From: Bacteroidetes bacterium GWF2_38_335
Lineage (GTDB): Bacteria > Bacteroidota > Bacteroidia > Bacteroidales > GWF2-38-335
Length of the DNA: 64,000 bases
Reading direction: 5' to 3'
NCBI GenBank assembly: GCA_001769535.1
Contig: MEOH01000005.1
Coordinates: forward strand, 1 to 64,000
Part shown: positions 8,136-11,713 of the stretch, in pieces
Position numbering within the stretch: the first letter of the stretch is position 1
Layout: the number at the start of each line of letters is the position of its first letter
Position numbers and translations under genes: made by a program
Notes under the pieces: generated by a model
Database searches by the model: none
Told to the model about the DNA's origin: nothing
Seen by the model: only the letters and a program-made list of their open reading frames with translations

Positions 8136-8250
8136 TGTAAAGCCGGAAGCCGGAAGCCGGAAGCCGGAAGACCGAAGCCTGAAAGATTACCTTAAGCCAC
8201 AGCTCTGAGGGAGCTGAACAATAATAGCCCCGGCTTGCAAGCAGGGGTGT
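8136..8250. repeat. Dispersed repeat, copy 1: heptamer array plus palindrome module
   Basis: Six 7-bp units (GCCGGAA four times at 8142-8169, then GACCGAA and GCCTGAA) are followed by a block holding AGCTC/GAGCT and CCCCGGCTTGCAAGCAGGGG (8228-8247, one mismatch from a perfect palindrome). The same succession recurs at 10151-10278. The rest of the 7818-8260 spacer is AT-rich and, apart from the hppA promoter, shows a further heptamer-like stretch at 8090-8131 (AAAGTGCCTAAAGTACTTCG). Confidence 0.78.
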
Positions 8251-8260
8251 TTATTAATTA

Positions 8261-8785
8261 TTAAAGAATTATTCCAAAATTAATATCTCCCAAAAAACCA
8301 GTTAATGAGAAAGTCTGAAAATATGTTGCGCCTACACCTGCTGCAATATTCCAGTACCATTTTTTTCCAATGGTTCTTTGTATGCCTAGCATAGGACCGG
8401 TTTTTAAATAGTATTGTCCAAAACTTGGTGTGTGTCCAACTTGAATAATTATAGCTCCATATGCTCCTGAAAAATTGTCTGTTCGTTTTTCATCTGCTTT
8501 TCGTTTAAGCAAATTGCTATACAACCTTGATTCAAGATTAATATAAGGTTTGTAGTGCGTTCGGGCCACATAATAACCGTCATCCCTCCCTCTCGAAGTG
8601 TAACCAATTCCCGTATCAAAAACCAAGGTGAGGTTCCATTTAATTTTTTGCTCAACGCTAATTCCTAATGGAATCCCATGTAATCTGACTGTAGTATTTT
8701 TGCAATTTAAATCCTGATTAGTCTGGGAAATCCCATAATTAGTGAATGTAATCAAGCAAATTATTATCAGATACTTAAATTTCAT
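8261..8785 (-). CDS. Small outer-membrane beta-barrel-like protein
   Basis: The protein has 174 residues when started at the ATG at 8785. A TTG two codons upstream would also be possible. A signal peptide of about 20 residues ends near GISQ. The rest alternates polar and hydrophobic residues in strand-sized blocks (LTLVFDTGIGYTS, YINLESRLYSNL, YLKTGPMLGIQ, WYWNIAAGVGATYF). It ends in a strand finishing with hydrophobic residues (DINFGIIL), as small outer-membrane barrels do. It recalls DUF3575-like proteins, but I cannot assign a family. The start lies 2 bp past the stop of the PorP/SprF-like gene, so the two are almost surely co-transcribed and may work together at the outer membrane. Confidence 0.7.
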   Translation of the reverse strand: MKFKYLIIICLITFTNYGISQTNQDLNCKNTTVRLHGIPLGISVEQKIKWNLTLVFDTGIGYTSRGRDDGYYVARTHYKPYINLESRLYSNLLKRKADEKRTDNFSGAYGAIIIQVGHTPSFGQYYLKTGPMLGIQRTIGKKWYWNIAAGVGATYFQTFSLTGFLGDINFGIIL

Positions 8786-8787
8786 AA

Positions 8788-9687
8788 TCAAAAATTATAA
8801 GTAATATATCCGGCACTGATATTATTTAAGTTCAAAGCCATAAGTAGACTGAATTTATCAGCGATTTTAAAACCTAAAACAGGTATTATTTGCAACCTTG
8901 AATAATAATTGCTTGAATTTTTATAAATCAGATCAACGCCAAATAATATTTTATTCCAGGTTTCATACAGGTTTTTGACTTCAAGAATTTTATTTTCAGT
9001 AAAATTGAATACATCGTAAAAACAAACAGCACTTGTCAGACTGCTTATTGTATTTTTTGAAAATTTATTCAATATAAAGATGTTGAATTGGTTGGCAGGA
9101 AATCTTCTTAAAGTATCTCTTCCTATTGCCAATGCTTGTTCTGAATTATAGAAGCTCTCATCTGTAAGTCCGAGTAAAAAGGTTTTGTATTTAATGATAA
9201 ATCCAAAATCCAGATTTAATCCGGTTTCTTTAAGTTTAATATTTTCAATATTATTATTAATTGAAGAAATTTTGCCCTCATGGACATAATTTATAAGTGA
9301 AATATTTATTCCGGCAGAATAGGAAAAATTACTGTCTAAATCTCTTTGAATTGAATATTTGAAATCATAGTTATTTTCCTTCCTTGTATTACTAGACCAT
9401 TCGTATTGAGCATGTGAATACCTGAAACCAATACCAGATTGAATTTCTTTATTAAAATAATTTGCATTCATTGTATGATAGAAATTTGTCCTATTATTTA
9501 AAGCATACAAATCATAAGCTGAATAATTAATGTTATTATCCTTGTTTATTGCATAATATGCCGGATTCAAAACGGATAGGTCATAAACTGATTTTTCCTG
9601 GGCTTTTCCCTGTAATGCAGAGAAATATGCTGCAAGTAAAATGAATTTTAAACTGACATTAAAAAAAATCAGAAGGGTATTTCTCAC
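8788..9687 (-). CDS. PorP/SprF-like type IX secretion membrane protein
   Basis: The protein has 299 residues and appears to start at GTG (9687); no ATG lies near the signal peptide. After a hydrophobic leader it carries the family's opening LNPAYYA (normally NPAYAG). Then come repeated barrel strands, the LNLDFGFIIKY...FLLGLTDES segment typical of PorP/SprF, and a C-terminal strand ending GYITYNF. In known systems PorP/SprF proteins are outer-membrane partners of T9SS or of large secreted adhesins. No sprB-size adhesin gene is next to it here; its neighbour is the small barrel protein downstream. The assignment to the superfamily is fairly firm. The partner is unknown. Confidence 0.75.
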   Translation of the reverse strand: MRNTLLIFFNVSLKFILLAAYFSALQGKAQEKSVYDLSVLNPAYYAINKDNNINYSAYDLYALNNRTNFYHTMNANYFNKEIQSGIGFRYSHAQYEWSSNTRKENNYDFKYSIQRDLDSNFSYSAGINISLINYVHEGKISSINNNIENIKLKETGLNLDFGFIIKYKTFLLGLTDESFYNSEQALAIGRDTLRRFPANQFNIFILNKFSKNTISSLTSAVCFYDVFNFTENKILEVKNLYETWNKILFGVDLIYKNSSNYYSRLQIIPVLGFKIADKFSLLMALNLNNISAGYITYNF

Positions 9688-9965
9688 AAACTTTTTAAAT
9701 TTTTCACAATGATAAGAAAAATTAATATTTGGTGCAAAAGATTAATTTAAGACCAAGTTTATGATGTTTTATATCAATATATTATAGGGTATATGTTAAT
9801 TGTTGATAAATAGTATTGGCTTTTTGAAATATTTATTCCTATAAGAAAGATATTGAGACAAATAGATATTCAAAAAATTCTCCTTTGGATCAAATTTTCA
9901 TTTGGGTTAATTAATACTGAAAACCATTTCCTATTATTACGTTCATTGGTTAAATCAACTCCGCA

Positions 9966-10125
9966 GGAGCTGAACAATAATAGTCCCGGCTTGCAAGTCG
10001 GGGTTTTAATAATAAGCCTGTAGGGCTTAAATTATGGTAGCCCAGGGCAAACGCCCATGGGCCCGCCGGCCAAAAATCAATAAAAACCATGAATTCTGTC
10101 CCGGCGGAAATAAATGATGAATTTA
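9966..10125. repeat. Composite palindromic element, copy A
   Basis: GGAGCTGAACAATAATAG leads into a CCCGGCTTGCAAGTCGGG palindrome. Then come a TAAGCC/GGCTTA hairpin (10013-10029) and a GCCCAGGGC...GCCCATGGGC hairpin (10040-10062). A 45-bp unit bounded by CCGCCGG (10063-10069) and CCGGCGG (10101-10107) closes the block. The outer parts recur downstream in copy B (10238-10350). The remaining 9688-9960 spacer is very AT-rich with no gene that I can support. Confidence 0.75.
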
Positions 10126-10150
10126 ATTTAAAGGTAAGATAATAAAGTCC

Positions 10151-10350
10151 GTAAAGTTGGAAGTCCGAAGCCGGAAGCCGGAAGCCAGAAGTCGGAAGAT
10201 CGAAGCCTATAAGATTACCTTAAGCCACAGCTCTGAAGGAGCTGAACAATAATAGCCCCGGCTTGCAAGCCGGGGTGTATTGTCCGGGATACAGACCGCC
10301 GGCCGAAAAGCTTAAAGAACCATAAATTCAGTCCCGGCGGAAATGAATGA
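10151..10350. repeat. Heptamer array and composite palindromic element, copy B
   Basis: Seven 7-bp units (GTTGGAA, GTCCGAA, GCCGGAA twice, GCCAGAA, GTCGGAA, GATCGAA; 10156-10204) are followed by the same module as at 8184-8250. This includes a perfect 20-bp palindrome at 10256-10275. A second 45-bp unit bounded by CCGCCGG (10296-10302) and CCGGCGG (10334-10340) follows. The two 45-bp units have identical length and termini but diverged interiors. Confidence 0.78.
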
Positions 10351-10404
10351 TGCAGCTAAATCACCTCCCGGTTTGTCAATAATTTTACTAATCATATTTT
10401 TTTC

Positions 10405-10412
10405 TATCTTTG
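10405..10412 (+). promoter_or_regulatory. -7 promoter element before the first GldM-C-like gene
   Basis: TATCTTTG matches TAnnTTTG and lies 16 nt before the ATG at 10428. No TTG is found at standard spacing upstream (the nearest, at 10373-10375, is too far), so only the -7 part is supported. Confidence 0.45.
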
Positions 10413-10427
10413 CTAAAAGTCTTTAAT

Positions 10428-11063
10428 ATGAAAATGAAATTTGCCTTCCTCATCCTTATTGCCATTTCATCATTCTGCTTTTCGCAGGACAAAAAAGTCG
10501 TTGTTTCGGCCACAAAACTCAACGTGCTATACCGTGGTATCGAAAATCCCGTTGAACTGGGGGCTGAGGGCATCAGTTCCGACAAACTGATTGTTACAAT
10601 CACCAACGGAACCATCACAAAAAAAACAGGAACCGACTATGTAATCGTTCCCGGTGCAGGAGACTCGGTGGTTGTGATTTTATCTGAAAATAAAAAAGTA
10701 ATCGGGGAAAAGGTTTTTAGGGTGAAAAATGTTCCTGAACCAGTAATTGGACTTTGTGATAAAACGAATGGATCAATAGTAAGTAGAACTTTCTTAAGCA
10801 CTTGTAATGATATTTATGCAAAAAAACCTCCCGGATTTGAGTTGGAGTCAAATTACACAATACTGTCCTTTTCTGTGTCTGTGATAGATTCTCCCGGAGT
10901 TGTAAAAATAGAAAAAACAAAAGGAAATCATATATCTGCTAGCCAGGCATCTCTAATAGCCAAACAAGAATCTGGTGAACAGATTGTATTTACTGACATC
11001 CTGGTTGAATATTCTGACGGCAGAAGGGCTATAGCCCAGCCTCTTATCTTAACTCTTGATTAA
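10428..11063 (+). CDS. Stand-alone GldM C-terminal-like secreted protein (1)
   Basis: The protein has 211 residues from ATG 10428; the frame could open at TTG 10410, but the signal peptide MKMKFAFLILIAISSFCFSQ begins at the ATG. The mature part starts KVVVSATKLNVLYRGIENPV and continues with ...ITNGTITKK...GDSVVV...FRVKNVPEPV. This is the order of motifs in the periplasmic C-terminal domains of GldM, the T9SS motor stalk. A second domain with FELESNYTILSFSVSV follows, as in GldM's last domain. The N-terminal transmembrane helix and long stalk of true GldM are missing. It probably folds like the GldM tip and may be an accessory or periplasmic binding module. The gene 17 bp downstream is a paralogue. 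Confidence 0.72.
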   Translation: MKMKFAFLILIAISSFCFSQDKKVVVSATKLNVLYRGIENPVELGAEGISSDKLIVTITNGTITKKTGTDYVIVPGAGDSVVVILSENKKVIGEKVFRVKNVPEPVIGLCDKTNGSIVSRTFLSTCNDIYAKKPPGFELESNYTILSFSVSVIDSPGVVKIEKTKGNHISASQASLIAKQESGEQIVFTDILVEYSDGRRAIAQPLILTLD

Positions 11064-11080
11064 CCCAAAAAGATTCAATA

Positions 11081-11713
11081 ATGAGAATTATTTTTATATC
11101 CACAGTCCTTCTCTTTTTTCAATTATCATTAATTGCTCAGGAAAACAATCATGTAGTTGTAGGCGCTTCTTTTCAGAAAGTCCTTTACATCGGTGTTGAC
11201 AACCCCCTCGAAATTGTCATCCCCGGAGAAAAATGCAGCGATATATCAGCCACTATCAGCGACGGGACTTTGACCAGTCTGGGAAATGGGAAATACAATG
11301 TTGTTGTAAAGAATCGGGGGTTAAGCACAATTTATATTTCTTTAAAAAGCGAACTGATAGATTCAATTGTTTTTAAGATAAAGAGAATACCGGATCCTAT
11401 TCTTTTTTTTGGTCATCTTAAACAAGCGGATAAAATAAACATTGACACCTTGACAGCAGGCGAAGTGTTTGCCAATTCTCCTGAGGGATTTGACTATGAA
11501 TGTAATTGGAAAATAGTAAAGTTTCAAATCAGAGTTGCAATTGATAGCGTGTCACACAGGGAGTTCTGTGAAGGCAGCAAACTAACTGCCAAACAAATTG
11601 AATTGATGAAATCACAAAAATCAGGAAATTATATTGTTATCGATGAGATTTATTCAATTGATCCTTTGGGAGAAACAAGGAGATTGGTTCCCATGGTATT
11701 AATGGTGGAATAA
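11081..11713 (+). CDS. Stand-alone GldM C-terminal-like secreted protein (2)
   Basis: The protein has 210 residues with a signal peptide ending near LIAQ. It repeats the plan of the preceding gene: VVVGASFQKVLYIGVDNPLE, ISDGTLTSLGNGKY, FKIKRIPDPI, then a domain with FDYECNWKIVKFQIRV. Identity to the upstream paralogue is modest but the motifs are collinear. The 17-bp gap indicates one transcript. Its role is inferred only from likeness to the GldM tip domains. No gldK, gldL or gldN is present nearby. Confidence 0.7.
   Translation: MRIIFISTVLLFFQLSLIAQENNHVVVGASFQKVLYIGVDNPLEIVIPGEKCSDISATISDGTLTSLGNGKYNVVVKNRGLSTIYISLKSELIDSIVFKIKRIPDPILFFGHLKQADKINIDTLTAGEVFANSPEGFDYECNWKIVKFQIRVAIDSVSHREFCEGSKLTAKQIELMKSQKSGNYIVIDEIYSIDPLGETRRLVPMVLMVE

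Follow-up and report, generated by a model that had tools for sequence, protein, structure and literature searches.

The first 64,000 nucleotides (nt) of contig MEOH01000005.1 (forward strand, assembly GCA_001769535.1) of Bacteroidetes bacterium GWF2_38_335, the stretch that we analysed and here call the window, raise the question of what proteins resembling one end of GldM, a component of the type IX secretion system (T9SS), might do outside the gldKLMN operon. Four open reading frames (ORFs) in two divergent pairs are present where the initial annotation had placed them, 8261-8791 and 8788-9687 on the minus strand and 10410-11063 and 11081-11713 on the plus strand. That annotation viewed the four genes as a detached T9SS-like set, in which the two plus-strand products would be GldM tip domains behind a signal peptide and nothing else. 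The features of the plus-strand pair are as follows.

10405..10412, + strand: promoter-like box TATCTTTG, which fits TAnnTTTG and starts 23 nt upstream of the tip A ATG
10428..11063, + strand: tip A, predicted exported GldM D3-D4 protein of 211 amino acids (aa) from the likely ATG start (Pfam, AlphaFold2 (AF2) model)
11081..11713, + strand: tip B, predicted exported GldM D3-D4 protein of 210 aa (Pfam, TIGR03517 positions 322-516)

The ORF of tip A as listed (10410-11063) starts at a TTG at 10410; the start is most likely the ATG at 10428, because the box at 10405 lies 23 nt before it. TAnnTTTG is the Bacteroidota -7 consensus, and this box is its sole occurrence in the scanned intervals 9601-10450 (+) and 9501-10450 (-). 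Tip B follows tip A after a gap of 17 nt, and both proteins begin with a signal-peptide-like stretch (judged by eye). Pfam finds the third and fourth GldM domains (GldM_3rd or D3, GldM_4th or D4) in tip A with E values of 9.8e-16 and 1.4e-7 and in tip B with 2.6e-11 and 1.5e-4, the last being slightly below the Pfam cut-off, and the same scan finds neither GldM_1st nor GldM_2nd (D1 and D2) in either protein. The NCBIfam GldM model TIGR03517 matches both from position 322 onward only, with 83.8 bits for tip A and 67.8 bits for tip B, far under its curated cut-off of 180 bits. A phmmer search of the PDB matches tip A to GldM (6ey4, E 9.5e-12) and to PorM chains. Fold modelling, which covered tip A alone, gave an AF2 model from a 19-row alignment with a predicted local distance difference test score (pLDDT) of 88, and PorM and GldM structures fill the first seven places among its PDB matches (E 4e-14 to 6e-12, TM-score 0.67-0.76 by query length), so that a GldM-like fold is indeed what structure prediction returns.

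Compared with GldM/PorM (TIGR03517; PDB 6ey4, 6ey5, 6ey6, 7cmg), the tips have its D3, its D4 and its fold and retain the most highly conserved residues of D3 (Y, G, NP) as well as the P-x-P joint, but they lack the membrane helix, D1 and D2, have a signal-peptide-like start of their own, and stand in tandem in this genome outside the gldKLMN operon. Pfam, NCBIfam and the PorM-matching model thus concur with the description of the plus-strand proteins in the initial annotation. On these sequence and model grounds tip A and tip B are predicted to be secreted, periplasmic free GldM tips consisting of D3 plus D4 only, and since D1, D2 and the GldM membrane helix are missing they would have no part that GldL could turn.

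The window pair is one of several in this genome (5.27 Mb, 29 contigs; C, L and G numbers are our handles for contigs, loci and genomes). There are eight GldM_3rd matches in it and never more than five in the other 294 genomes of the order. The core gldKLMN set lies on C27, where the full GldM adjoins gldK-, gldL- and two gldN-type genes, and the window pair lies on C5, with no relative of GldK, GldL or GldN in the window by phmmer. Tips form three pairs, on C5 (window), C4 and C19, and all three have a TAnnTTTG box at a similar distance (-23 in the window, -27 and -25 in the others), for which the chance expectation is 0.0076 in 11 positions. The genome also encodes lipoprotein-like D1-D2 proteins (L023:7145-9226 and L024:6265-7290, the latter D1 only by Pfam); the L024 gene adjoins a gene for a SpoIIE protein.

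GldM_3rd matches occur in 264 of the 295 order genomes, a set that includes the present one. We re-listed the 34 other genomes with at least two such matches, took 20 + 7 stretches and read their ORFs, and found stand-alone exported tips in at least 14 of the 295 (the own genome, G245, G027, G161, G140, G226, G051, G158, G173, G107, G086, G037, G260 and G184), a lower bound because the reading covered genomes with two or more matches. G260 and G184 fall short of the Pfam cut-off for GldM_3rd, and the second tip gene of G086 came up only with a hidden Markov model (HMM) whose input was eight D3-D4 sequences from the own genome; G263 (membrane-anchored), G168 (weak), and G058 and G252 (contig ends or fragments) were excluded. 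Four of the 14 (own, G226, G173, G086) have pairs. A search of 395 genomes of the phylum, which scored at most seven candidates per genome and was used for presence only, together with its follow-up revealed tips in at least six more genomes of the class, one of which, G351, has a pair; tip A as a query against named genomes found no relative. A split GldM, in which free D1-D2 and free D3-D4 halves would reassemble, was considered and rejected: when 30 genomes selected for their tips or tip fusions are compared with 22 controls that have one GldM_3rd match, 8 of the former and 6 of the latter carry additional GldM_1st genes, which are therefore not linked to tips. Of these eight, G047 carries its GldM_1st and its tip on a single broken gene, and G166 has two matches, one of them without Pfam confirmation (L107); among genomes with stand-alone tips the count is 3 of 20.

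The second G351 tip, searched against named genomes, led to Flavobacterium swingsii DSM 21789 and to a metagenome-assembled genome labelled Limnohabitans, which like G351 we take to be Flavobacterium-like by its content. All three loci carry tandem tips (2, 2 and 3 genes) among neighbours that are alike by eye. In the tree, the genes at the first position group in one clade (100/100) and those at the last position in a second (82/79, not starred); the third genome's middle gene belongs to neither. A and B are 31-39% identical in the three genomes, and within clades the nonsynonymous rate dN (0.23-0.44) is below the synonymous rate dS (0.78-1.85, some values near saturation) in six of six comparisons. 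Judged from their sequences, the tips in these genomes are a pair of old paralogues that has been retained together. Such retention at one locus with dN < dS speaks for an obligate pair that takes the place of the GldM homodimer tip, and it is the strongest indication we have that the two different tips are required jointly.

What could such a pair do? An accessory role in the envelope, as the initial annotation had proposed for the tips, is judged the most likely reading, and in its specific form we put it forward tentatively: a motor-less tip of GldM, free-standing and probably present as a pair, would dock on the ring of the T9SS. In such a model tip A and tip B would form a heterodimer in place of the GldM homodimer tip by a strand swap between their D3 domains, and the A/B pair would dock through D4 on GldN of the cell's GldK/GldN ring, where it could influence the engagement of the GldLM motor with the ring, as an adaptor or competitor that is itself motor-free; alternatively, the pair could tie other exported proteins to the GldK/GldN ring. 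PMC5790014 describes GldM as dimeric, with a strand swapped between the D3 domains, and reports from a two-hybrid test that D4 of PorM alone suffices for PorN binding; PMC12421860 gives S460 of PorM as a cross-linked D4 contact to PorN. Counted on 7cmg with an assumed offset of nine and then transferred by alignment, S460 maps to a hairpin that is kept in the tip A model (strands 150-159 and 165-171, around S161). Across 24 tip-only proteins, mean retention of the GldM majority residue is 57% at 17 conserved D4 columns and 43% at 44 D3 and linker columns. Given the D3 swap, the D4-PorN contact and the retention of these columns, free tips could associate as pairs and occupy the ring without a motor; we infer docking on the GldN/GldK ring from the published PorM-D4 data. 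We count in favour of it that the GldN genes of the genome are confined to its single core set.

A number of observations weigh against a docking pair. Binding to PorK required D2-D3 and D4 of PorM, according to PMC5790014, and the surface of PorM that meets PorN is described in PMC12635249 as not substantially conserved, so that sequence conservation cannot settle docking. Ten of the 14 order genomes have single tips and not pairs. No relative of GldK, GldL or GldN was found by phmmer in any of 26 stand-alone tip stretches (some under 5 kb). Within the own genome, tip A of the window clusters with tip A of C4, but tip A of C19 clusters with tip B of C19, so that a single A/B split across all tip pairs, which we had considered, is not seen, and much of the wider tip tree has no resolved branching. 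The sole other genome of the genus has the full GldM only and no extra tip, and the tip module is therefore dispensable. Finally, at 13 further tip loci the box is missing within 150 nt in seven and lies at -23 to -27 in one (-25); being mostly absent or elsewhere at these loci, it is no general mark of tip genes.

The remaining features of the stretch belong to the minus-strand pair and its surroundings.

8140..8250, + strand: 111-nt dispersed intergenic repeat, copy 1
8261..8785, - strand: small protein, 174 aa from the likely ATG, putative barrel; no Pfam or NCBIfam match
8788..9687, - strand: candidate PorP/SprF-like protein, very divergent, 299 aa, found with an HMM of the genome's own PorPs; orphan
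10168..10278, + strand: 111-nt repeat, copy 2 (94%)

The small protein, listed as an ORF of 176 aa (8261-8791), has a signal-peptide-like start by eye, and its gene begins directly after the stop of the PorP-like gene. The PorP/SprF-like label of the latter holds only in a weakened form. The protein has no Pfam match and no PorP match in NCBIfam, and it is not among the 27 PorP-family (TIGR03519) matches of the genome at E <= 10, 22 of which, elsewhere in the genome, are ordinary PorPs above the cut-off. By eye, an LNPA-type stretch can be made out close to its N-terminus, and an HMM from ten own-genome PorPs finds it as one of two hits (E 1.4e-4, 54 sequences scanned), while hhalign against PorP gives an E value of 0.012 at a probability of 3.5%. 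Missed by the curated model and with these two results, it is at best a very remote PorP relative as judged by homology search. The PDB returned nothing convincing for it (best E 0.55), and an AF2 model built without relatives reached a pLDDT of 34. Among the matches listed for the 295 order genomes, the one strong match is the own genome, with three further weak and partial matches (E 3e-4 to 2.6e-3). Cysteines in the C-terminal tail join SprF to GldK, as a part of PMC12635249 describes, and such a cysteine is absent from the PorP-like protein, whose sole Cys is at 222; since two of five ordinary PorPs examined from this genome have no Cys near the end and three do, this feature is not diagnostic of all PorPs.

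That all four genes form one module, with the PorP-like barrel as the outer-membrane partner of the tips, we consider highly improbable. The genes do lie together and one of them is distantly PorP-related, but no relative of either minus-strand protein was found by phmmer at other tip loci (L001-L105 and the 26 tip stretches), and no PorP-like or small-protein gene adjoins the tip pairs on C4 and C19. The only other locus with an ordinary PorP near a tip is L074, where about 4.3 kb separate them. With no co-occurrence of the two gene pairs in the order genomes or at the tip loci, we abandoned the four-gene set. The G+C content of the PorP-like gene (27.8%) differs from that of the tips (39% and 36%), dispersed repeats bracket the barrel pair, and the SprF-type cysteine is missing; the PorP-like gene is thus probably outside the tip module. 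The two best copies of the 111-nt repeat do flank the barrel pair, which had been read as the sign of a rearranged accessory region, yet the family has 15 matches, mostly partial, dispersed across the genome, and a special rearranged region was discarded. None of the four proteins of 8261-11713 has the C-terminal sorting domain of T9SS cargo by Pfam or NCBIfam. Elsewhere in the window, the product of the gene at 1767-5222 matches PKD, SprB-repeat and, weakly, trypsin-like domains, carries a sorting domain of T9SS type A and is likely T9SS cargo.

GldM pieces also recur in proteins of other architectures. On C10 of the own genome, L020:7142-9238 encodes an nSTAND1 NTPase with a membrane helix and GldM D3-D4 and adjoins an nSTAND1-WD40 protein. 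L099 has an nSTAND1 fusion with D3 only by Pfam, and L070 a broken gene with nSTAND1 in one frame and GldM_3rd plus GldM_4th in the adjacent one. The D3-D4 module is common to these proteins and the window tips; in the former it is joined with a membrane helix and an NTPase of cytoplasmic type, whereas the window tips are free and predicted to be exported. At L063:5489-7194 a membrane helix, GldM_1st and GldM_2nd are followed by assembly Ns and a tip that clusters with the C10 tip (98/92), and the contig ends before any NTPase. An M56/BlaR1-type protein with two GldM_3rd stretches lies beside a penicillinase-repressor gene (L104:5183-6748). Exported proteins of 342-354 aa with a GldM tip at the end are encoded at L071, L100, L101, L102 and L103; the STN gene beside the L101 protein lies at a contig end. 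L106:5489-7702 encodes a single protein with GldM_1st, a SpoIIE phosphatase domain and, weakly matched, GldL_N, L108:4054-5514 and L109:6314-7786 have GldL_N and GldM_1st in one chain by PadR regulator genes, and at L105:1698-5662 two full-length GldM-like genes, the first of them examined with Pfam, come after a GldL_N gene. At L022 and L060 tips lie by an exported TPR-CHAT and an exported WD40-caspase protein, in differing gene order and in two genomes that belong to different families. A tip, CHAT and caspase cassette of general kind was dropped, as these are two loci only; tips are found in none of 40 further caspase stretches (some caspase matches were left untaken) and a CHAT gene in five of them, and the exported WD40-caspase protein occurs in at least 36 of 393 genomes. 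Among the matches listed, we found no account of free tips or signalling-type fusions in the open literature; a passage of PMC5790014 mentions extra porM orthologues in F. johnsoniae, and a figure legend in PMC9389320 calls the GldM size distribution rather uniform.

If the tips are surplus fragments of GldM duplicates that drift without a function of their own, their patchy occurrence (14 of 295 order genomes), their absence from the sister genome and their high divergence would be accounted for, as would a truncated 129-aa copy at L055 and a copy with stops in G385. However, the frames are open and begin like signal peptides, promoter-like boxes precede all three pairs of the own genome, and the pair has been retained with dN < dS in the Flavobacterium-type genomes, which leaves drift very unlikely. 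Because GldM pieces recur with nSTAND1, BlaR1/M56, SpoIIE and extracytoplasmic function (ECF) sigma/FecR genes, the main rival is a signalling role. Here D3-D4 would be a portable module, and the free tips, unrelated to secretion, would be periplasmic partners of signalling proteins, dimerising with the D3-D4 of sensors such as the own nSTAND1-membrane helix-tip protein. That protein on C10 speaks for it, as do the nSTAND1 proteins at L099 and L070, the M56/BlaR1-type protein at L104, the tip proteins of about 345 aa by ECF sigma/FecR genes (L071, L100, L102, L103) or an STN-domain gene (L101), and the tip genes adjoining exported CHAT and caspase proteins at L022 and L060. We nevertheless regard it as possible but unlikely, as no genome-wide link emerged, the 40 further WD40-caspase stretches contain no tip, nSTAND1-tip fusions occur in three of the 295 order genomes (a fourth, in G047, is cut by a contig end), and no signalling gene adjoins the window pair. 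A broader idea, which we hold to be quite doubtful, is that the GldM tip is a general reader of the ring: free pairs, nSTAND1- and BlaR1-type sensors and the tips of ECF-sigma operons would share the GldK/GldN ring, and the window pair would be their soluble representative, gating the motor or competing with it.

If such a general reader existed, the state of secretion and gliding would feed into cytoplasmic signalling. Signalling proteins that reuse parts of GldM and GldL would suggest a connection between secretion and gene regulation, which, among the matches listed, we have not seen described in the open literature. If, on the other hand, the window pair is a motor-free tip that docks on the ring, cells would carry passive copies of the very part by which the T9SS motor grips its ring, and these would offer a natural handle on motor-ring engagement, an open question in work on gliding and the T9SS. 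In laboratory strains, the Flavobacterium A/B pair may provide a route to testing this idea of a passive tip.

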